From Prolixibacteraceae bacterium (lineage in GTDB: Bacteria > Bacteroidota > Bacteroidia > Bacteroidales > Prolixibacteraceae), in assembly GCA_028377305.1 (NCBI GenBank), contig JAONJW010000001.1, positions 1 to 64,000 on the forward strand: a stretch of 64,000 bases of DNA, given 5' to 3'. Position numbers and translations under genes: made by a program. Below, one piece after another: positions 9,503 to 24,010 of the stretch (within the stretch, counting starts at the first letter, position 1; every line of letters begins with the position of its first letter). The notes under the pieces were generated by a model, which was not told where the DNA came from, searched no databases, and was given only the letters and a program-made list of their open reading frames with translations.

Positions 9503-10035
9503 GTCAGAGAGGTAGTTCCAGCGAGAGTAGGATTAAGACCATAACTTTAATTTCTATAAATTGCTATTACACCAGTCAGAGAGGTAGTTCCAGCGAGAGT
9601 AGGATTAAGACATGACTAATCTTACTAGCGATACAGTTATACGGTGTCAGAGAGGTAGTTCCAGCGAGAGTAGGATTAAGACGTCAAATGCTGACGCAAA
9701 TGACGGAACCTAAGTGTCAGAGAGGTAGTTCCAGCGAGAGTAGGATTAAGACTTCATCAGGTACCACTATATTAGAACTTCCAGCGTCAGAGAGGTAGTT
9801 CCAGCGAGAGTAGGATTAAGACATAGAATATTCGTCACTATCGCCTTTAGTATGGCGTCAGAGAGGTAGTTCCAGCGAGAGTAGGATTAAGACAAGGTTT
9901 TGATTTCTTTGAGATTATCGAATCTTATGTCAGAGAGGTAGTTCCAGCGAGAGTAGGATTAAGACCTAGATTAACTCTAGAGCTGTTGATTAGGTTACGT
10001 CAGAGAGGTAGTTTCAGCGAGAGTAGGATTGAGTT
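9503..10035 (+). CRISPR. CRISPR array, 8 repeats and 7 spacers, no cas genes in the window
   Basis: The 37-nt repeat begins GTCAGAGAGGTAGTTCC and ends GAGAGTAGGATTAAGAC. Copies start at 9503, 9575, 9646, 9716, 9786, 9857, 9929 and 9999. The first seven are identical; the eighth has a C-to-T change inside and its end altered to ATTGAGTT, typical of the leader-distal repeat. Spacers are 35, 34, 33, 33, 34, 35 and 33 nt and all different. The repeat end ATTAAGAC looks like an 8-nt crRNA handle, which fixes the direction as forward and hints at a class 1 (type I or III) system. The repeat has little internal pairing. No cas gene lies within this window, so any Cas proteins would act from elsewhere or be lost. 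Confidence 0.97.
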
Positions 10036-10133: not shown

Positions 10134-10160
10134 ATATTGTATGGATGAGGTATCCCTCTC

Positions 10161-10247
10161 GTGCCAATGAATTGGCACAAACTAGGTCGTATTGGATGTG
10201 GTGTGGTTGAAGTTGGAGTGTGATGGTTTGTGCCAATTCATTGGCAC
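10161..10247. repeat. Mini-element bounded by two GTGCCAAT palindromes
   Basis: GTGCCAATGAATTGGCAC followed by AAAC (10161-10182) is mirrored by GTTT plus the same palindrome (10226-10247), giving 22-bp inverted ends around about 43 bp. The left half, with TGGATGAGGTATCCCT before it and TAGGTCGTATTGGATGTGG after it, recurs at 14532-14592 and partly at 17671-17712. Confidence 0.6.
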
Positions 10248-10353
10248 GCCTTGCGCTTAGCGTTGATGTATATGAATGGAAAATAAGGAATTCATAGCCA
10301 CGGATTAGACAGATTTTCACGGATCTTGGTTGGGGTGCAAGAATGGGACAACT

Positions 10354-10494
10354 GCTGGGAACGCAGCGCTCCGCTCGGCATCGTGTGTCAACTTTACCAT
10401 TGAGCAACTTGCCCGTGACGCAACATACGCAGAGGAGTACTAAGGTTGTCGCTCTCTTGTGGTACGATGCCGAGCGGAGCTCAGCGTTCCCAGC
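10354..10494. repeat. Palindromic module, copy 2
   Basis: Same arms (GCTGGGAACGC ... GGCATCGT / ACGATGCC ... GCGTTCCCAGC) and same loop orientation as copy 1 (AAGGTTGTCGCTCTCTTGTGG before the right arm). It is preceded by the CACGGATTAGACAGATT string and GGATCTTGGTTGGGGTGC. Confidence 0.8.
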
Positions 10495-10579
10495 GGATGG
10501 CACACCGATGAAACAGATCTTTTTATGACTACGTAGAGGCGCGATGCTCGCGTCTATTGGATGCATCAATAGCCCCGAA
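10495..10579. repeat. Dispersed block, partial copy
   Basis: This repeats the first third of the 8419-8653 block, up to AGCCCCGAAT, then jumps straight into TTTCACGGGTCTTGG. It looks like a deletion that joined the block to the leader of palindromic module copy 3. Confidence 0.7.
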
Positions 10580-10621
10580 TTTTCACGGGTCTTGGTTGGG
10601 GTGCAAGGGTATGGGACAACT

Positions 10622-10735
10622 GCTGGGAACGCTGAGCTCCAGCTCGGCATCGTGTATCAGGAGAGCGACAACTTAGTATTGCTTCATGGATCTTGGTTGA
10701 TGCTTCGTTGCCGAGCTAGAGCTCACCGTTCCCAG
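10622..10735. repeat. Palindromic module, copy 3 (short, loop reversed)
   Basis: The left arm and upstream flank match the other copies, but the loop is shorter and reads GAGAGCGACAACTTAGTATT, the reverse complement of the loop segment in copies 1, 2 and 4. The right arm is degenerate (GCCGAGCTAGAGCTCACCG). It abuts the truncated IS3 orfA piece. Confidence 0.75.
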
Positions 10736-10747
10736 TGTTTAGCAATT

Positions 10748-10876
10748 TCATTGTTTCGAACCATTTAATCCATGATCCGCTCCAACTTGAGTTGATCTAC
10801 GACCACTCAATACTTGATTAATGACCATCAGCTTAAACTTCTTGTCGTATCCTTGCCTTTGTTTACCTTTTGTCAT
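10748..10876 (-). pseudogene. IS3-family transposase orfA fragment
   Basis: The reverse strand encodes 42 residues starting MTKGKQRQGYDKKFKLMVIN and continuing QVLSGRRSTQVGADHGL, the N-terminal helix-turn-helix of an IS3 OrfA. It then stops just inside the flank of palindromic module copy 3. Upstream sequence (TTGACCAGACATAAGG on the reverse strand) may be the old left end of the element. No orfB follows, so this is a dead 5' remnant. Confidence 0.65.
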
Positions 10877-13724: not shown

Positions 13725-13950
13725 CTATCTATGTTTGTGACCGAAGAGGAAACACATGACGTAGGCGAGGTATTCGGTGAATTTGTTGAGTGTGAGAAAT
13801 GGGATGTTGAGTTTATGGACAAAGAGACAAGTGAAGAGAATGGCTAATTCATGGATGTTGCGGTCGAGGAAGCCAGTGGAAGTAGTTTGGTTGTTGCGAT
13901 TACGAGGGTCTTGTTTGTCGGCGATGAGGTGTTTTTGATGATGCGCACGG
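13725..13950 (-). pseudogene. Possible gene remnant running out of the repeat block
   Basis: On the reverse strand a frame without a start is open for about 75 codons, from inside the dispersed block (FHLCAIRAHHQKHL) to a TAG at 13725. It contains FLDRNIHELAILFTCLFVHK and ends YLAYVMCFLFGHKHR. It is not recognised. It may be the tail of a gene cut by the repeat. The opposite strand also carries a 38-codon acidic frame (13731-13847), so coding is not established on either strand. Confidence 0.25.
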
Positions 13951-14177
13951 ATGGCACACAGATGAAACTGATTAGACCGATGAAACAGATCTTTTTATGA
14001 CTACGTAGAGGCGCGATGCTCGCGTCTATTGGATACTTCAACAGCCCCGAATGGGGTGATCGAATCTAGCCCAATGGTGGAATGGAAATGAAGTGCTTTA
14101 GCTCTGAATATGGAATGGAGCCTTGGGTTAACTCCACTCATCTACATCCAAGGGCTGAAAGTCTGCCCCCTCAGATC
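13949..14177. repeat. Dispersed non-coding block, copy 2 (full)
   Basis: Nearly identical to 8419-8653 over its whole length (a shorter T-run and roughly ten substitutions). The sequences outside the block are unrelated on the left; on the right both lead, at different distances, into a palindromic module. This implies a fairly recent duplication or transposition. Confidence 0.8.
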
Positions 14178-14282
14178 GTAGTTGACTCAAATGAATGGAA
14201 ACAAGGAATTCATAGCCACGGATTCAACGGATTAGACGGATTATCACAGATCTTGGTTGGGGGGCAAGGGTATGGGGCAGCT

Positions 14283-14424
14283 GCTGGGAACGCTGAGCTT
14301 CGCTCGGCATCGTGTGTCCACTTTACCATTGAGCAACTTGCCCGTGATGCAACATACGCAGAGGAATACTAAGGTTGTCGCTCTCTTGTGGTACGATGCC
14401 GAGCTGGAGTTCAGCGTTCCCAGC
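14283..14424. repeat. Palindromic module, copy 4
   Basis: Arms and loop as in copies 1 and 2 (loop with TTTACCATTGAGCAACTTGC and AATACTAAGGTTGTCGC). It is preceded by the CACGGATTCAACGGATTAGA string and followed directly by a partial copy of the dispersed block. Confidence 0.8.
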
Positions 14425-14490
14425 GGATGGCACACAGCTGAAACAGATCTTTTTATGATCACGTAGAGGTGCGATGCTCGTGTCTAAAAT
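14425..14490. repeat. Dispersed block, partial copy
   Basis: GGATGGCACACAGCTGAAAC through GTAGAGGTGCGATGCTCGTG repeats the start of the block seen at 8419. Confidence 0.7.
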
Positions 14491-14531
14491 TTAGCACTTT
14501 TAGCATATGGTTGTTGCAAATTAAATGTTTG

Positions 14532-14592
14532 CATGAGGTCTCCTTATCGTACCAATGAATTGATACAAACTAGGTCGTATTGGATGTGGTGT
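14532..14592. repeat. Degenerate GTGCCAAT palindrome with flank
   Basis: GCATGAGGTCTCC, GTACCAATGAATTGATAC (14549-14566) and AAACTAGGTCGTATTGG match the 10140-10209 segment with mutated palindrome arms. Confidence 0.55.
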
Positions 14593-14663
14593 GTGTGTTT
14601 GCTAGTTTGACTGGGATCAGTTCTTTTGATAGTGTGGAACATCCAGAGAATGATGTGTAAGAG

Positions 14664-14938: not shown

Positions 14939-15625
14939 ATGAATCCAAAACGAAGAGATCGTATTCAATTAATTCTATTCATTTTCTTAATATTCTCTAT
15001 TATTTTCTTTCTTGTTAATTCAATTTGTAATAATGATTCAACACAAACTATGGCCTCTATAGCTCTTCTAATATCTGTTGTCTCACTATTTGTAACATTA
15101 TTATCTTATAATAATATATTAGATTCAAAATTACCACAGGTATTAGTCGATTTAGATGCAAGTAGCAGAAATGAACTGGTTATGCTAGTTGTGAAGAATG
15201 TAGGAGAAAAGCCCGCATTTAATATTAGTGTTGAATTTAATAAAGAAATACCAACTGGAGAAAATGGTAAATATTTTTGTGAAAAAATAGGGGGGGGGAG
15301 TAAAAAAACATTTGGTATAAAATCAATTAATACAACACAGGAGTATAAATATATCATTGGTTTAGGAACAAAGTTCTTTAAGTGGGCTCAAAGAGAAAGT
15401 GATCCGATAAGCGCAAACATTGTTTATTATTTGTGTGATTCCAAAAGAAAAAGATATCGAATGGAAACAAAGGTTATAATTGATGCGAAGATTTATGGAA
15501 GGACTGCTAGTTATGAGTCAGAAAAAGAAATGTATTACTTTAAGATGCAAAGTTTGCCAGAACAGTTAAAAGATGATAGAGCTGCATTACTTAGGATTTT
15601 GCATAAATTAGAGAAGAAGGATTAG
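14939..15625 (+). CDS. Two-helix membrane protein with a soluble domain, unknown
   Basis: This is an unrecognised 228-residue protein. Two membrane helices lie at about residues 9-27 and 37-58. A mostly beta domain follows (about 65-175), with LVMLVVKNVGEKPAFNISVE, a pattern seen in Ig-like C-terminal domains of small membrane proteins. A charged C-terminal helix ends it (EQLKDDRAALLRILHKLEKK). Base composition is more AT-rich than neighbouring core genes. A run of nine G at 15290-15298, coding IGGGS, stands out and could vary in length. It is preceded and followed by very similar stop-overlapping terminators, so it is probably its own unit. Confidence 0.6.
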   Translation: MNPKRRDRIQLILFIFLIFSIIFFLVNSICNNDSTQTMASIALLISVVSLFVTLLSYNNILDSKLPQVLVDLDASSRNELVMLVVKNVGEKPAFNISVEFNKEIPTGENGKYFCEKIGGGSKKTFGIKSINTTQEYKYIIGLGTKFFKWAQRESDPISANIVYYLCDSKRKRYRMETKVIIDAKIYGRTASYESEKEMYYFKMQSLPEQLKDDRAALLRILHKLEKKD

Positions 15626-15727: not shown

Positions 15728-16564
15728 TCAATCAAATCGTAACTTAAAGACTCGATATGATTCTTTATAGTATTCAAAATTTATATCAGTCATAAAAATA
15801 TGATTTGATCTTGTTTTGAAATAAAAGGGAGTACCGCCCTGAAGGTTTATTGTACTTTGAGTCTTAGATATTGGTGGAAGTGTTTCAGCATCCAAATATT
15901 CTTTAGATTGTAGTATGTTCATCACATCAGCAAAAGAGTTGTCAGAAGCCTTTGACAAATGCAATGTAAATTTCTCTTTAGAAATAATCGATTCTAAATT
16001 ATCGTATTTTAATATGATTGGAATAGCAATGTCAATTATACCAAACATATCTTGAAGTAAAGACCGTAGATTATTATAATAGGGTGTGTTCAGCTGTTCT
16101 GTTATTTCTATGAATTTAAACCTTTTATTCATTAAGTAGTCCACAAGAATATTTGAACTTGTAGTTTTATTATATTTGTTTCTGTCATTTTTTTGAATAA
16201 CGATTTCGGATGAGAGAGAGCCTTTTAATTTTGTAATATCTAACCAATAACCTTCTTCTGAAATATTGCTCAAGACTATGATAAAAAGAGGTAACTCGAA
16301 GGAATTAAAATAAACATAGTCCTCTGTGATATCAACAACTACTTTAGAGTGATCTTGCTTTTGTTCATCTATTTCATAAATCTTTATTCCATATTGAATA
16401 TTTACAGTCTCTTCTTTCTTTATTACTTCAATAATACCATCAATCTGATTGTCTGGTTTTTTGAATGAATGGAATAAAATATTTGAACTAACGATGTGTT
16501 CTTCAAATATATCTACATTTGTGAAGCGATTATTTACCATATTTTTGTAAGTAGTTTCTAGCAT
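15728..16564 (-). CDS. DUF4365-like protein lacking the catalytic lysine (partner subunit)
   Basis: This 278-residue protein was not identified by name, but its first 110 residues line up with the upstream gene product. D42 in IDGIIEV matches D40, and Q57 in VNIQYGI matches Q60. LPLFIIVLSN at 91-100 matches MPVYGAVFVP, and GYWLDI at 105-110 matches AYVVNI. The lysine of QxK is replaced (Q57-Y-G59), so the nuclease-like fold is probably inactive. The C-terminal half (about 130-278) is unknown and ends in beta-strand-like sequence. It overlaps the upstream gene by 35 bases in another frame, so the two are translated from one message. Inference: it forms a complex with the active paralogue. Confidence 0.65.
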   Translation of the reverse strand: MLETTYKNMVNNRFTNVDIFEEHIVSSNILFHSFKKPDNQIDGIIEVIKKEETVNIQYGIKIYEIDEQKQDHSKVVVDITEDYVYFNSFELPLFIIVLSNISEEGYWLDITKLKGSLSSEIVIQKNDRNKYNKTTSSNILVDYLMNKRFKFIEITEQLNTPYYNNLRSLLQDMFGIIDIAIPIILKYDNLESIISKEKFTLHLSKASDNSFADVMNILQSKEYLDAETLPPISKTQSTINLQGGTPFYFKTRSNHIFMTDINFEYYKESYRVFKLRFD

Positions 16565-17318
16565 TAGTATAAGTCATTTTATAAAATTCCAGCTCTTTTT
16601 TGTGTAACTCTAAATAATTTTCACAAAAAGAGAAAGTCCCATTTTTTATTGCACATGTAGCTACTCTTTTACCAGAATTTTTTAATGTGTCAAGGTATTT
16701 CTGATCATTTAATTTTATACCAATTCCACTGATAAATCCCTCAAAATTAGGATTGTTGTTAAGAACGTGAACAATTGAGTTATAAGATTCAGAAAAGTGG
16801 TTAATTAAAGTATATAGTGGTTTGAAATTCTGGTTGTTAATAAAATCTAGAAAAACATCAACGTAAGGTCTTTTTATGATTTCATTATGCATGATTGCTT
16901 TAAGTGTGTCATAGTCGAACTCATATACATCAGGATCAGTGATGTAAAAAGAAATCGTTCCTTTGGAAGTGTTATGTAACCGACCTTTAATGTTAACAAC
17001 ATAGGCTTTAGTTAGTAAAGGCACGAAAACAGCACCATAAACTGGCATCGGATGTTGTTCCCAGTAGTCTCTGTGATTATCTATAGTTATTGAACAAAGC
17101 TGTGTACTAGGAGTAAAAAACGATTTCCCTGATTTGATTTGGAAGGATACAAATTTTCCCATTCCTTCACCATCATCATTTGTCTCTTCAACAATAATAT
17201 CTATGCCTTTATCTTTTTCACGTTCAATTTCTCTAAATATCCTACCTGATTTAGATATAATACGTTTCATGCTCAGGATACCTTTTCTTTCTTCAGAATT
17301 ACTTATTAGGTGTTTCAT
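16530..17318 (-). CDS. DUF4365 domain protein, putative PD-(D/E)XK nuclease
   Basis: This is a 262-residue protein with an N-terminal DUF4365 domain (about 1-140). The signature is KGIDIIVEE (D40, E44/E45) and, twenty residues on, FVSFQIKSGKSFF (Q60, K62), the D...QxK arrangement of Mrr-like PD-(D/E)XK nucleases. HPMPVYGAVFVPLLTKAYVV follows, as in the family. The C-terminal half (about 150-262) is helical, with several cysteines, and is unknown. It is first in a two-gene unit that overlaps its paralogue by 35 bases. DUF4365 proteins are often found in defence-like settings, and this one sits 7 kb from a CRISPR array within a repeat-rich island. A defence role is inferred, not shown. Confidence 0.7.
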   Translation of the reverse strand: MKHLISNSEERKGILSMKRIISKSGRIFREIEREKDKGIDIIVEETNDDGEGMGKFVSFQIKSGKSFFTPSTQLCSITIDNHRDYWEQHPMPVYGAVFVPLLTKAYVVNIKGRLHNTSKGTISFYITDPDVYEFDYDTLKAIMHNEIIKRPYVDVFLDFINNQNFKPLYTLINHFSESYNSIVHVLNNNPNFEGFISGIGIKLNDQKYLDTLKNSGKRVATCAIKNGTFSFCENYLELHKKELEFYKMTYTNARNYLQKYGK

Positions 17319-17670
17319 AATCTATTGATAAAAGTTTCAGTGTAAGATATCTAAAATAGATAGGAATGTATAATCTTCTTCATAATGAATATTATTGATT
17401 TTGTTTAAAATAGGAAAGTTTGTTTTTTGCGAATGAGTGAAGCCTAGAGTAAGCGAAGCTGTATGTTAAAAGATGAATGACTGAAAGAGAGACTGAGTAT
17501 TTGAGCGTAAGTAAGGAGGAGAATTGAGGAGGAAGGGGACATTAATTAGTGTGTGTCAAAAGGGGTTTAAATAGCAAATTAATTGTCATCAATTTTTTGT
17601 AAAAGTAATTCACCACTATTACAGTCAAAAGTTTCCCTAATCGCCCTATTAGACCTACTATCAAAATTTA
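17319..17670. other. Intergenic stretch with no recognisable feature
   Basis: About 350 AT-rich bases upstream of the DUF4365 pair. I see no gene, RNA or clear promoter; a purine-rich tract (GAGTAAGCGAAG to GGAGGAAGGGG) occupies 17440-17540. Confidence 0.5.
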
Positions 17671-17712
17671 ATGTTTGGATGAGGTATCCCTATTGTGCCA
17701 ATTCATTGGCAT
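17671..17712. repeat. Degenerate GTGCCAAT palindrome with flank
   Basis: TGTTTGGATGAGGTATCCCT followed by GTGCCAATTCATTGGCAT (17695-17712) and GCCTTGCGCTTAGGGTTGA; the same flanks surround the copies at 10161 and 10230. Confidence 0.55.
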
Positions 17713-17818
17713 GCCTTGCGCTTAGGGTTGATGTATATGAATGGAAAATAAGGAATTCATAGCCGCGGATTAGACAGATTTTCACGGATCTTGGTTGGGG
17801 TGCACGAATGGGACAGCT

Positions 17819-17933
17819 GCTGGGAACGCTGAGCTCCAGCTCAGCATCGTGTATCAGGAGAGCGACAACTTAGTATTGCTTCATGGATCTTGGTTGATAC
17901 TTCGTTGCCGAGCTAGAGCTCAGCGTTCCCAGC
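17819..17933. repeat. Palindromic module, copy 5 (short, loop reversed)
   Basis: Like copy 3, it has the standard left flank and arm (GCTGGGAACGCTGAGC) but a loop reading GAGAGCGACAACTTAGTATT, opposite to copies 1, 2 and 4, and then TTGCCGAGCTAGAGCTCAGC at the right. Confidence 0.75.
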
Positions 17934-18020
17934 GTTTGGCATTCTTATGGTTCTTTTTATTATGGTAACTATAATGCTTTGGATGTGCATTGATTTGACT
18001 GTATGTGTGATTGATGTTTT

Positions 18021-18079: not shown

Positions 18080-21000
18080 CTATTTATTCACTTTTATGCT
18101 TTTAATTTGATTGTTGCCATAAAAAACAGGAAAATACATGTGTTCCATACGTGCAGGATTAATATTAACCTTTCCTGAATAGCGAGGAACTAACTCTATT
18201 TTCACCTTATAATTACCTTTATGAAGCATGCTATAGTAAATGGATACCTTTTCTTTATGGTATTCACGATGAGATTCACGGTATTGTTTTTGTGTTTTGT
18301 TATGGTATGAGCAAACTGATGGTATCGGTATCTCTAGTAAAAGATACTCTGATTCTTTCTTTATGTGTAGATCTACTACCAAAGTCACTTTCTCACCTGC
18401 CGTTAAATGAGATATGGTATCTTCATTTTTTTCAAATGAGCTATGAATTTCAAAATACTCATCTTTTCGTACAGATGTTTTATTGAAATATTTACTATGC
18501 CATCCCGCAAATACTAATTGATGCCCTTTTTTGATTATGCTTACTGTATCTCCCTCGTTAATTTCTCTAGAAAAAGGAAATTTAGTAATATCCTCTAGAT
18601 CTCCGTTAATCCTTACACTTAAAGAGTTAGACTTAATACTTGCTTTTTCCTTAAGTAGGTCCGGCAGAATATGTTTTATAATTAATGCTGATTCATAGGT
18701 GTTTCTCCAACCCTGTCTATCCCTACTTTCGTAGAAGTAGTTTCTTATTTTTGGAAGCCAATCATTATAGTTACCATCGTTTTTAAGGATTTCATACATT
18801 AGTAGCGTTTGCTGAACTCTACCATAGTATAGTGACCATAATCTCTTACCCCAATAATAATTACCATACAGAGTTTCTTGTTTATCCTTAATATAGGACG
18901 AAATATCTATCTCAATATTACTTCTTTGTTTTATCACTGTTAATCGCATTGAATCCACTCTGCTAAAGGTTGAGTCGTTCAATTGTTTGATTAAATTAGG
19001 GTAGTCGGCTTGTGTCTTTAAAGTTTGCAATGTATTTAATATGCTTAACTTCCCTCGTGAATCTAGTAGTGTATAATTATTCAATAACTTATATTTTATA
19101 TCTTCTCGATTATACTCTACTTTGTAACCCGCCTGTTTAGCTAACTCTAAGCCTTCAATTACATGTGCTGTTATCCACCATTTGGTATCTGTTTCTGACC
19201 ACCAACCCCATACTTTATCTTTATTGGTACTTTTTAGCAGACGAGCAATTAGCTTATTTACATCCTTTTTATAATTGAATTTTTCTTCTTTGTATGTACA
19301 TACCTTTTCTTCATTCAGTAAGGCAATTAGCTTGGATGAAGCTTGTTCGTTACACAAATGTGAGTAATTGCGTAATTTAGCAGTTTCTTGAAGTAAAATA
19401 TTTAAAGGATTGGATTCTACATAAAGTAATCCCTGTGTAGAATGCATAGGGATGCGAAAACCAAGTGTCGTATCTCTATTCATACTGAAAAAAGCTCCAC
19501 TTGTTTCTTCTACTCCTAAAGGCACTACAGTTAATTTCTTATTCTCTCCATCAAAATAACCGTTGTCACGTTCAACCGAATAGGTCATAGATAAGGTGTC
19601 TGTGCTGCTTGCGTTAACATGTAAAGTATCAACAAGTATGCGACCTAAATTTCTTTCCTTTTTGAATAGTTCTGTTGAATCAACACTGTAAGTTGAACTT
19701 ACTTTAATAGAATCACTCAAATAACTAATTGACTTCCCTATTGCCTTGATGGAATCTCCCTGTGTTAAAAACCTAGGAATCAATAATTGTGCAGATAATG
19801 GTTTAAACGATTTAATTTCTCCTTGCACTTGCCCTGTTTGTCTATTCTTTCCCACAGCAAGTGCAAATGTGTTCCATGATGTTATGTCATCAGGGAAGGT
19901 GGTTGTAAAAGTGGCTTCTCCTTTGCTATTTGTAACCAAATTTGGTTGCCAAAATGCTCCATCGGAGAAATTATTACGTAAACTATAACTACTGCCAGCC
20001 TGAACAGGAATGTCAGTTGCATTCAATTGCTTGGCAAAAGGTAATCCTTTCCCACTTTTTGTGGTAATAATAATTACGCCTGAAGCTCCTTTAATACCAT
20101 AAATTGCTGCTGCAGCTTCACCTTTCAAAACATTAATATCAGCCACTAAGGAATCATCTAATTCATTCATATCATACTCTACAGGAATCCCATCTACAAT
20201 AACCAGAGGTTTATCGGATGAAGTATCCCCTATACCACGAATTTTAATATTTTGGGATGCTCCTGGGGCTCCTGCAACACGTCCTTGTATAGAATTTGAC
20301 ACAACAGATGAAATGCTGCCAGTGTCCATACTTTTTGTCTGAGTATGATCCGTAACAACAACCACTTCACTCAATTCTAATCCTGAAGTAGCTAAACTTA
20401 CATTAATCTCTCCTGAATCGTGTACAGGAACGGTTACTGATTTATAACCTATATAGCTAAATTCCAACTCAAAATTGCCTTGTGGTAACTTAATGGAATA
20501 GTTCCCATCGAAATCAGAAATTCCACCAATGTTTGTGCCTTTAATACATATTGAAACACCAGGAAATCCTATATTGTCTGATTCGTCAACAACTCTTCCT
20601 CTTATTATATGTAAATTTCTACATTTAAGCTGCCTACGAATGAAGTTCGACTTAATTTCCGTTTTTGCTAACCTCTTATTGTAGAGTGAGCCTGATTTAC
20701 TTTTCTTGAACCATTTCTCTTGTATCAACTGTGCTATATTCTCAGAATATTCATCCTTTAATAGTGAATCTGGTTGATTTGTTTGAATAACTGAAAGGCA
20801 ATATGCCTTTAGTATGATATGTTTCTTTTCAAAATATGATCCATCTTCCATTAAGAAAAACAAACGATAAATACCTGGCTTTAAATCATGAATATGTTCT
20901 ACATAGGATGGATAAATGCGCATAAATTGAGGATCAGAATCTCTAAAAACTAAAATATTACGCAATTGTATTGCCAAACTATCATTTGTATTATATTCTA

Positions 21001-24000
21001 TCGCCAATACTCCATTACCTTTCATGGTGTAATATGGATTATCGTAGTGAATATATGAATTAGCATACTGGATCTTCTCTTCTTTACCCAGCCATTCAAT
21101 CGTTTGCTTATTTATCACTTCATCATGAAAAGAAGGAGTTGCAAAATTATTATCTAAATAATTAAGATTCCAAAAGTGATCATTGGTCTTCATTTTTACG
21201 AGGCCTTCATCAATAGTGTATTCATATGATGGTTCAAATTTAAAACTAGTTGTAAACTTATCATGATGAGTAAAATTTACTTTCCCATTTTTAAAAGGGC
21301 CTACAATAAGTGCTTTGTTATAGTTGTAGTAGGTGAGATACTTATATGGTGATTTTGTGTTTTTAAGTATCTGATAATTATTATTCTGCTCTAAATAAAT
21401 TAGTCCTTTCTGATTAGACGAATAGAATTTGGCAAACCGTGTTCTAATTAGCGTCTTCTCATCCTTCGTTAATTCAGGCTTCCTTTCTTTAATAATTACA
21501 TGCTTATTCGCTTTTAATGGGTCAATAGATACCAAGGTTTTATAGTCTTGTTTAAAGTATACAGAATTAACGGTTAGGTCATAATCACTAGTTCTCAATC
21601 TTAATTTATGGTAACCTGGACTACACTTAAAACTATATGGTTTATTCGCGGCAATGGATGAATAAACCAAATCATAATCAAGGAAGATAAAATGAACTTG
21701 TACTGGTACCCCTTCTTTATACACAAATGGAGCAAATTGAGTTTGTCCTTTATCTAGCTTAGTATATTCAACATGAACGCCCTTTTGTGGACGAACAAAT
21801 TTGTAATAGGTTATGGTATCTAAACTCATTCTTGGATTCCATGTATTATAGTCTAATGCACCGAATGATGTTGAACCAAAATAAGTATCTCCCATCATGT
21901 TATATTTATTATACATGGTGCGAGGTTTTGCTAATTTGCCATAATACCTGAGTGATGGAGCGCTATAGTTAAATTTTTTAGTTAATCCGTATGCTGTTAA
22001 ATCCACTCCTTTTACAGGACGATCTTTATAGTCCCTTACCTCAAGTGTCATATCTACTGTCTGACCTGGATAAACTACTTGTGGCTGCTTCATCTTCACA
22101 CTTAGTTGTTTTCTGTAAAGAGGAATATCGTATGATTGTTTATAGCTATTTCCTGCCCATTGATAGTTAAGAGAGACGAAACACCCTTTATTGCTTTTAA
22201 AGTTAATAAGGGTATCTAATTTCTGAGTGTGACCACTAGCTATTTCTTTATCCTTCTTGTAAACAAAGTATTTAAACCATACTCCCTGAGGGTTAAATAC
22301 AGAGAAATTAACGGTGTTGTTGCTTCGTTGAGAGTTTAGGGATAGTGTGGGCTTATAATGATTAAGGCTAAAATATTTTTCTATAACTTCTGATTTAAGG
22401 TTATAAGATTCAATCAGCTTATTTACGACTTCGACATATGGTAATGTGACGCTTTGCTCCTTTAGTAAATTTCCGTTTTTATCAAATGCGGTTAGAAGAA
22501 CTTCTAAAGGAAGCTCATTGCCGAGATTTTCATAAGTAAAGTGAATAGAATCGTTCTTAACCTTAAGTGAAAGTTCTTTTTTCTGGTGATGATAATGTAT
22601 AGTTTTATTTTTCTGAATTCTTTCGTTTTCACTATTTAAAAACACCGCTTCTAAATCATATGAGAAATCCATTGCTGGAAAGATCGTATCTGGAATTTCA
22701 ATTATCGTTTCTCCAACAGGATCTAACTTTTGTGTATAACGATACAGAGTATCTTTTAAGAACTCATGATCTTTATACAACTTACTGTATGTTCTTTGGG
22801 ACTTTAGAGTAACAATTACCCTTCCGTCAGGTATAGCTAAACCATTCATATCCTCTCCTTTTAGATAAATATAAAATGGTATACCTCGCAACTGGTCATG
22901 TTTATCTGCCCGTAAGTTATATTTAATGCTATTAAGTTCGTACTCTTCAAATTTAAATGATTGAGATATCACTGTACTCCATTCTCCATTCTTTAGGGAT
23001 ACCCTGTAGGTTTTATCTAGCTTCATATTCAAGGAGTCGTGCAATACAAATTCATGCGTATAGATACCTTTCCGGTCAGGTTCTATCTCTTTGAGCTTAA
23101 TTACCTTATTATCCACCCTTATAGATGCCATTAGCTTTTGATTACTAATAAAGTGACCATTTGGCTGTAATAGACATGCTTTAAAGCGCACTGTATCATT
23201 GGGTTTATATTTGGGTTTACTGAATACCATATATCCTTGATAGTTTTTTTTAGAAGATTTTCCGCAACAGCGTACTAATCTGTTTATCCAACCATAGGTT
23301 CCATACCTAAATATTGAACGGTATGTGTCCTTAAAAGGTTTGTAAATGTAGTAGGGCAAACCTTGAGGTCTACCATTGTATGCCGTCATAAACAAATCGT
23401 ATGGCAAGTAAACTAGCAACTTTAATGGTACGTATACATATTTTATGGGTACAGAAAAAGTAACCCTCTGAAACTGAACTCCCTTTTTTACTTCATTGTC
23501 CAAGTAATGATAACTTGTGAATTCATTGTATGTCACTTCTAGCCAACCTCTTGTGTTTGTTTTTCTTTTTTGATATGCTTCGAGCTGTGGATTATAACGT
23601 ACTGATTGTCCATTTATTTTGACTTTGGCATCTTCTAGAACTTCTCCAGTGGAATCCACAATAGTTAACAATAGGTCTGCGTAATTATTATACACAATGA
23701 CTTCAATATCAGAGTATGATCTCATTTCTAACTTAAGGTCATTATCTTGAGCCCATACTAACAAGTAATTACCCTGTGAAAGTTTGCGGTTAAATATTGA
23801 ATCTGTAGGAATCGAATCTTTAAGTACCGAAAAATAACCTTCATCTACTTCGCTCAGCCCTTTCTTATAAATAGCTCTTGCTTGTTTACGGCTTAACTGA
23901 TATATGTATTTATAATAGCTGCTTCTTCGGCTATCTGACAGATTGTTAGCATTCCCTTGATTAAATACAGATATCAATAATATAGTTATAATAGGTATTA

Positions 24001-24010
24001 TCGCTCTCAT
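18080..24010 (-). CDS. Alpha-2-macroglobulin family protein with internal carboxypeptidase-like and TonB-plug domains
   Basis: This is a 1976-residue secreted protein with a signal peptide (about 1-21). The N-terminal half has macroglobulin (MG/MG2-like) beta domains, including YMVFSKPKYKPNDTVRFKA at about 250. At about 1130-1225 there is a carboxypeptidase-like domain (GRVVDESDNIGFPGVSICI). It is followed at about 1226-1320 by a SusC-type plug (IKIRGIGDTSSDKPLVIVDG, AAAAIYGIKGASGVIIITT). Directly after comes the classic A2M motif (FPDDITSWNTFALAVG, about 1390) and then a thioester-type C-x-E-Q (HLCNEQASSKL, Cys near 1553). No TonB barrel exists. Bacterial A2M proteins trap proteases in the periplasm; here the inserted plug suggests docking to an outer membrane or TonB partner, which is inference. 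No pbpC is nearby. Confidence 0.85.
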   Translation of the reverse strand: MRAIIPIITILLISVFNQGNANNLSDSRRSSYYKYIYQLSRKQARAIYKKGLSEVDEGYFSVLKDSIPTDSIFNRKLSQGNYLLVWAQDNDLKLEMRSYSDIEVIVYNNYADLLLTIVDSTGEVLEDAKVKINGQSVRYNPQLEAYQKRKTNTRGWLEVTYNEFTSYHYLDNEVKKGVQFQRVTFSVPIKYVYVPLKLLVYLPYDLFMTAYNGRPQGLPYYIYKPFKDTYRSIFRYGTYGWINRLVRCCGKSSKKNYQGYMVFSKPKYKPNDTVRFKACLLQPNGHFISNQKLMASIRVDNKVIKLKEIEPDRKGIYTHEFVLHDSLNMKLDKTYRVSLKNGEWSTVISQSFKFEEYELNSIKYNLRADKHDQLRGIPFYIYLKGEDMNGLAIPDGRVIVTLKSQRTYSKLYKDHEFLKDTLYRYTQKLDPVGETIIEIPDTIFPAMDFSYDLEAVFLNSENERIQKNKTIHYHHQKKELSLKVKNDSIHFTYENLGNELPLEVLLTAFDKNGNLLKEQSVTLPYVEVVNKLIESYNLKSEVIEKYFSLNHYKPTLSLNSQRSNNTVNFSVFNPQGVWFKYFVYKKDKEIASGHTQKLDTLINFKSNKGCFVSLNYQWAGNSYKQSYDIPLYRKQLSVKMKQPQVVYPGQTVDMTLEVRDYKDRPVKGVDLTAYGLTKKFNYSAPSLRYYGKLAKPRTMYNKYNMMGDTYFGSTSFGALDYNTWNPRMSLDTITYYKFVRPQKGVHVEYTKLDKGQTQFAPFVYKEGVPVQVHFIFLDYDLVYSSIAANKPYSFKCSPGYHKLRLRTSDYDLTVNSVYFKQDYKTLVSIDPLKANKHVIIKERKPELTKDEKTLIRTRFAKFYSSNQKGLIYLEQNNNYQILKNTKSPYKYLTYYNYNKALIVGPFKNGKVNFTHHDKFTTSFKFEPSYEYTIDEGLVKMKTNDHFWNLNYLDNNFATPSFHDEVINKQTIEWLGKEEKIQYANSYIHYDNPYYTMKGNGVLAIEYNTNDSLAIQLRNILVFRDSDPQFMRIYPSYVEHIHDLKPGIYRLFFLMEDGSYFEKKHIILKAYCLSVIQTNQPDSLLKDEYSENIAQLIQEKWFKKSKSGSLYNKRLAKTEIKSNFIRRQLKCRNLHIIRGRVVDESDNIGFPGVSICIKGTNIGGISDFDGNYSIKLPQGNFELEFSYIGYKSVTVPVHDSGEINVSLATSGLELSEVVVVTDHTQTKSMDTGSISSVVSNSIQGRVAGAPGASQNIKIRGIGDTSSDKPLVIVDGIPVEYDMNELDDSLVADINVLKGEAAAAIYGIKGASGVIIITTKSGKGLPFAKQLNATDIPVQAGSSYSLRNNFSDGAFWQPNLVTNSKGEATFTTTFPDDITSWNTFALAVGKNRQTGQVQGEIKSFKPLSAQLLIPRFLTQGDSIKAIGKSISYLSDSIKVSSTYSVDSTELFKKERNLGRILVDTLHVNASSTDTLSMTYSVERDNGYFDGENKKLTVVPLGVEETSGAFFSMNRDTTLGFRIPMHSTQGLLYVESNPLNILLQETAKLRNYSHLCNEQASSKLIALLNEEKVCTYKEEKFNYKKDVNKLIARLLKSTNKDKVWGWWSETDTKWWITAHVIEGLELAKQAGYKVEYNREDIKYKLLNNYTLLDSRGKLSILNTLQTLKTQADYPNLIKQLNDSTFSRVDSMRLTVIKQRSNIEIDISSYIKDKQETLYGNYYWGKRLWSLYYGRVQQTLLMYEILKNDGNYNDWLPKIRNYFYESRDRQGWRNTYESALIIKHILPDLLKEKASIKSNSLSVRINGDLEDITKFPFSREINEGDTVSIIKKGHQLVFAGWHSKYFNKTSVRKDEYFEIHSSFEKNEDTISHLTAGEKVTLVVDLHIKKESEYLLLEIPIPSVCSYHNKTQKQYRESHREYHKEKVSIYYSMLHKGNYKVKIELVPRYSGKVNINPARMEHMYFPVFYGNNQIKSIKVNK

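Follow-up and report, generated by a model that had tools for sequence, protein, structure and literature searches.

Two overlapping genes on the minus strand of a Prolixibacteraceae bacterium genome, here called gene A and gene B, may constitute an Argonaute-free two-gene nuclease module in which A is the catalytic subunit and B a non-catalytic partner, a reading drawn from sequence comparison to which we give an even chance. The pair is located within a stretch of 64,000 nucleotides (GenBank assembly GCA_028377305.1, contig JAONJW010000001.1, positions 1 to 64,000), hereafter the window. Such a pair would be built from the known DUF4365/DREN nuclease family, and it is the combination of a live and a dead member that appears to be the new part; no live/dead DUF4365 pair was described in the titles and abstract openings searched, a scope outside of which most subscription journals lie. 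DUF4365/DREN is the cutting domain of SPARDA, according to the SPARDA study (PMC12205087), and a natural live/dead pair of this type would offer a small and testable system for how a DREN nuclease is switched on and off without an Argonaute. If the reading is true, the locus encodes either a two-part enzyme or a poison-and-guard pair, and it may help against viruses.

Layout and family membership of the two genes

Gene A precedes gene B on the minus strand, and the pair spans 15728-17318 (Table 1). The two overlapping minus-strand ORFs of the original prediction are thus present, but its 35-bp overlap assumed that B opens at the first ATG; in the orthologous pair of a second species of the same genus, represented by a single-contig genome (G001), the start codon of B corresponds to ATG 16540, which makes an overlap of 11 bp the likely one in both genomes. 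This overlap, being of the same length in the orthologues, suggests translational coupling of A and B. The G+C content of A and B together is 29.5%, compared to 37.1% for the whole window. A plus-strand gene at 14939-15625, convergent with gene B and likewise of 29.5% G+C, encodes a 228-aa protein with a membrane-type N-terminus (judged by eye) that matched no clear family, and no counterpart of it was seen in the G001 neighbourhood beside the pair.

Table 1. Coordinates of the gene pair and of repeat features in the window
Feature	Position	Strand	Description
Gene A	16530..17318	minus	262 aa; predicted DUF4365/DREN-type PD-(D/E)XK protein; D40, Q60 and K62 intact; PF14280 E 1e-17; last ~115 aa without a family assignment
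Gene B (likely start)	15728..16540	minus	270 aa; predicted DUF4365 paralogue; Asp kept, Gln to Lys, Lys to Tyr; last ~130 aa without a family assignment
Gene B (longest ORF)	15728..16564	minus	278 aa; opens at the first ATG, 16564
Overlap of A stop and likely B start	16530..16540	minus	11 bp, ATGGTAAATAA; start taken from the G001 orthologue
Dispersed, partly palindromic repeats	10135-10755, 13948-14593, 17669-17952		longest copies 133-145 nt, 93-95% identical; flank the region of the pair on both sides
CRISPR-like array	9503-10035		eight 37-nt repeats GTCAGAGAGGTAGTTCCAGCGAGAGTAGGATTAAGAC, start-to-start distance 70-72, last copy degenerate

Gene A is clearly a DUF4365/DREN-type PD-(D/E)XK protein with a complete predicted site, as had been claimed from the sequence. 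It matches PF14280 over residues 10-144 with 64.9 bits, well above the curated cut-off of 24.3 bits, and has all of the catalytic D, Q, and K. The catalytic residues of the NbaSPARDA DREN domain (equivalent to DUF4365) are given as D41, Q60, and K62 in its description, where collateral activity is abolished by D41A and Q60A and impaired by K62A (PMC12205087), and Q62 and K64 of TmuRE are named as potential equivalents (PMC10810196); in our alignment D40, Q60, and K62 of gene A match the NbaSPARDA triad. Against the nuclease part of short-Argonaute-associated proteins in PADLOC, gene A scores 5.7e-8 and gene B 2.5e-6. An AlphaFold model of gene A built from a five-row alignment is of moderate quality only (mean pLDDT 52), pLDDT exceeding 50 over the greater part of residues 8-147 and being poor thereafter. 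Foldseek searches with this model placed SPARDA chains at the top (best E 9.7e-8, N-terminal part), all 15 matches at E <=0.001 being SPARDA, and matches of weaker E included RecU/PrfA, Hjc-type resolvases, and I-Ssp6803I. Structure prediction of each protein, as had been proposed, gave a SPARDA-like result for A but an unusable model for B (four-row alignment, mean pLDDT 34); a Foldseek search with the latter returned no match at E <=0.001 and was set aside given the quality of the model.

The PF14280 profile likewise gave a split result for gene B, as the window copy reaches 21.5 bits (E 2.6e-4) and falls below the curated cut-off of 24.3 bits, whereas its G001 orthologue lies above it with E 1.3e-9. 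With an independent profile made from 32 other DUF4365 domains, A and B excluded, the two B proteins score 48 and 23 bits, compared to a best of 11 among 200 shuffled B sequences, and hhalign of the B pair against the 32-domain alignment gives 97.6% probability over 125 columns. From the G001 match, the independent profile scores, and the hhalign result taken together, gene B is read as a divergent DUF4365 paralogue, and its PD-(D/E)XK fold is predicted solely from this homology. When the profiles of the two A and the two B proteins, with just two rows apiece, were compared directly, no match emerged (0.1% probability), which indicates that B has moved far.

At the catalytic columns, gene B presents D42, K61, and Y63 (ORF numbering) and its G001 orthologue D, S, and L, the place of QxK being taken by K61-I-Y63 in the window copy and by S-I-L in G001. 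In the larger alignments the spacing from D to QxK is gap-free between B and DREN or its relatives, which leaves B without both Gln and Lys. Two small alignments (A8 and A11) opened a gap between D and QxK and gave B another register, so the register adopted here rests on the larger alignments together with A10; Lys is missing from B in every one of these registers. The loss of the catalytic Lys foreseen in the original prediction is thus borne out, but Q57-Y-G59, which had been named as the equivalent of Q60-I-K62, is four positions off the true K61/Y63; the D, LP, and GYWLDI landmarks do fall in register. The active-site alignment comprised 42 rows, that is 41 distinct domain sequences from 77 loci plus NbaDREN, a search-derived set rather than a census, with pieces of longer or broken genes among its rows. 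D, Q, and K are present in 36 of these rows including NbaDREN, two rows miss the site and two cover part of it, and the two B proteins are the sole rows with another residue at Q or K. Among the fetched DUF4365 domains, 37 are aligned at all three catalytic columns, and of these two lack Q and K, both of them B proteins. Keeping Asp and having lost Gln and Lys, gene B is predicted to be catalytically dead.

Known systems and the proposed mechanism

SPARDA, consisting of a short Argonaute and a DREN/DUF4365-APAZ protein, shares the nuclease domain family of gene A with catalytic D, Q, and K at nearly identical positions, and its structures were the sole solved relatives to come out of the sequence search and the top-ranking ones in the fold search with the gene A model. 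However, SPARDA has a Piwi protein beside the nuclease, and Piwi (PF02171) was matched in neither of the two genomes carrying the A-B pair (the genome of the window being 77% complete and G001 99%). It was for this reason that the pair was not filed as SPARDA, and membership was rejected within the reach of these two genomes, the first of them 77% complete. SPARDA also has APAZ fused to DREN, whereas none was recognised in A or B. The PADLOC Aga_REase models of 423-429 positions match them only to about position 139; the parts of A and B past DUF4365 measure about 115-140 aa and are shorter than the APAZ of NbaSPARDA, placed at aa 161-442 in its description (PMC12205087). A further difference is that the partner in SPARDA is guide-loaded, in contrast to the second, dead DREN-like protein seen here.

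PADLOC also holds PDC-M02, which we take to be a candidate defence system and for which no literature was found under that name. Its PDC-M02A models match gene A weakly (0.0081; 4.6e-5 for the G001 copy), and PDC-M02 models gave no match to gene B at E <=1 for the window copy and at 0.001 for the G001 orthologue. Outside bacteria, the XPF-ERCC1 type of enzyme joins a nuclease subunit to a paralogue that has no catalytic activity and contributes to structure and targeting. The proposed A/B arrangement resembles it in combining active and dead nuclease-fold subunits, but XPF-ERCC1 are eukaryotic repair enzymes from another PD-(D/E)XK-like branch, paired via HhH domains. The A-B pair would extend this principle of a dead nuclease partner, known from ERCC1, to a bacterial mobile cassette.

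In the mechanism that we propose, A would be the catalytic subunit, a DREN-type PD-(D/E)XK nuclease with a complete predicted D-QxK, and B would descend from a DREN-type nuclease whose Gln and Lys were gone before the copies of the two species diverged, selection having since maintained it for a role other than catalysis. The two proteins, probably translationally coupled, may pair through helix 1 and strands 1-2 of their DREN surfaces, while B, through its own C-terminal part, could set when or where A cuts. According to the SPARDA study, the DREN domain by itself is an inactive monomer and functions only when assembled into a D2 tetramer, whose formation is driven by Argonaute filaments and in which substrate is seen in two of the four sites (PMC12205087). 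Given this need for a half-occupied tetramer, a hard-wired A2B2 assembly with dead B at the two non-cutting positions would be, by analogy, a simple way of reaching such a state without an Argonaute, and the likely outcome would be nucleic-acid cleavage upon phage infection or entry of foreign DNA. In its fullest form, the proposal is that of a new type of two-protein immune nuclease, an Argonaute-free DREN system in which catalysis and gating are split between a live and a dead paralogue and A2B2 mirrors the half-occupied SPARDA tetramer; this we put forward as a tentative possibility.

Mobility, ancestry, and selection

When 6.5 kb of the window was compared with 19 kb of G001 by blastn, a single block was aligned, at about 15795-17271 of the window and inside the pair. 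As the pair alone is common to both stretches, A and B appear to travel together, and the pair is probably a horizontally moving module. In G001, 454 bp separate it from a preceding ORF that looks transposase-like by eye, and 185 bp from a following ORF that carries the DUF772 transposase domain; an ORF at L007:5288-6406, similar to the preceding one, matches DDE_Tnp_1. The G001 locus also encodes a KAP NTPase (L007:3274-5331, with PADLOC matches to PifA and QatA) about 3.7 kb from the pair and a putAbiC protein (PF16872; L007:68-820) about 8 kb from it, which together are likely to mark a defence island. A defence role of the pair itself is circumstantial, being suggested by this proximity to AbiC-like and KAP-NTPase proteins, by presence in two of four species of the genus, and by low G+C.

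In the window, dispersed repeats lie on either side of the pair, at about 13.9-14.6 and 17.7-17.95 kb. No recognised defence gene and no cas family was met among the window proteins scanned (15 by Pfam and 8 by PADLOC), and the other neighbours covered by the scans are for the most part chromosomal genes of an ordinary kind. Cas1 gave two matches in G001 and none in the genome of the window (77% complete). As for the repeat-rich island with a CRISPR array of the original prediction, a CRISPR-like array is present (Table 1); with neither Cas1 nor cas families found in the searches described, the array was not tied to the pair and a link of the pair to CRISPR-Cas was dropped. Beyond the repeats, a minus-strand gene at 18080-24010 encodes a 1976-aa protein of the alpha-2-macroglobulin family, with a carboxypeptidase-regulatory-like domain embedded in it and a TonB plug domain.

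The same anatomy would fit B as an antidote silencing A, which we regard as the main rival reading while holding it to be rather unlikely. Here A would be a toxin damaging DNA or RNA, and the dead copy would block it by forming inactive mixed oligomers, making the locus a toxin-antitoxin or abortive-infection module. Two small overlapping genes of low G+C that moved jointly into unrelated neighbourhoods, flanked in G001 by transposase ORFs on both sides, with the nuclease first and the partner second, are in keeping with such a module, and a dead paralogue would be a natural dominant-negative. On the other hand, B matched no antitoxin family in the Pfam search and is as long as A, with a sizeable conserved C-terminal part beyond the needs of a simple inhibitor, and the closest relatives of A are solitary in the fetched stretches, so a dead partner does not invariably accompany such nucleases.

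These relatives emerged from a tree built on 36 domains after removal of six rows that were short or partial, in which A, B, and four solitary DUF4365 proteins (L009, L010, L052, and L053) form one clade with support 95/95. The solitary proteins have an intact D-QxK, and they differ from the pair in being single genes of about 320-370 aa, the surrounding stretches fetched, each of roughly 3.3 kb, containing no further DUF4365 ORF; L009, L010, and L052 are single genes in their fetched stretches. Gene A groups with L010 and L052 (86/91), and the branch leading to B is long, at 2.57 changes per column. A direct sister relationship of A and B by tandem duplication is unsupported by the tree, and is also not rejected (AU p 0.248). 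The long branch would suit a B that acts independently of A, as a nucleic-acid-binding protein or a regulator of the locus that is merely co-transcribed, but an overlap of the same length and the joint presence in two unrelated neighbourhoods argue against it, and we consider this reading improbable.

A search of 199 related genomes found gene B in two, the window's own and G001, and gene A in four, full length in the same two and weakly in two others (near E 1e-3, with internal stops). In G001, A and B are intact and adjacent in the same order with the 11-bp overlap, so that the co-occurrence survey called for by the original prediction does show a two-gene unit kept in two species; identity between the species is 63% for A and 60% for B. 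Neither gene was matched in G002 or G003, which represent two further species of the genus, and this leaves the pair in two of the four species searched. Changes between the two copies fall mainly at third codon positions (73/43/145 at positions one, two, and three for A and 79/53/154 for B), with dN of 0.27 and 0.30, respectively. Across the full genes synonymous change has reached saturation, and dN/dS for the N-terminal parts comes to 0.09 for A and 0.12 for B. These patterns point to purifying selection on both genes, in a single pairwise comparison given that two genomes carry the pair. The lost catalytic residues and the weak Pfam score of the window copy could suggest a decaying duplicate or the frameshifted half of a fused gene, but this is very improbable, since B keeps a full-length open frame in two species at 60% identity with saturated synonymous change and dN of about 0.30, Q and K are gone in both copies, and A and B have separate DUF4365 domains. 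The pseudogene and frameshift readings were rejected on the intact orthologues and this substitution pattern, and a split fusion because each gene has its own DUF4365 domain and no fused homologue, which the original prediction had equated with a frameshifted pseudogene, occurs among the fetched loci.

The live/dead pair appears to be rare in wider samples, which overlap at phylum and class level and in which the B-profile search began with a loose first look and was not exhaustive. The B profile matched 10 of 395 genomes of the phylum sample at E <=0.01; beyond the window's own, the best two matches (1.3e-9 and 9.4e-9) are solitary genes with intact D-QxK and the other seven range from 2.4e-4 to 0.008. 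In the class sample, one of 395 genomes matched at E <=0.001, that of the window, and none of the searches brought up another B orthologue. PF14280 was matched at E <=0.01 in 30 of 296 phylum genomes and 27 of 393 order genomes. In these searches two matches apiece came from G000 and G001, where they are the pair itself; G364 and G771, where they are overlapping pieces with stops; G315, with two very long ORFs about 4 kb apart; and G411, G481, and G154, with matches on different contigs. Searches for gene B in plasmids and in the collections of genome contigs and viral contigs were unproductive, as were those for gene A and for a solitary relative, L049, in the viral contigs collection; for gene A, plasmids (8 records) and phages (3 records) yielded nothing beyond partial DUF4365-like matches. 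DUF4365 proteins with D, Q, and K are encoded on three viral contigs (L077:2968-3954, L079:2992-3903, and L080:2056-3105), the first of them in surroundings that look tail-like by eye.
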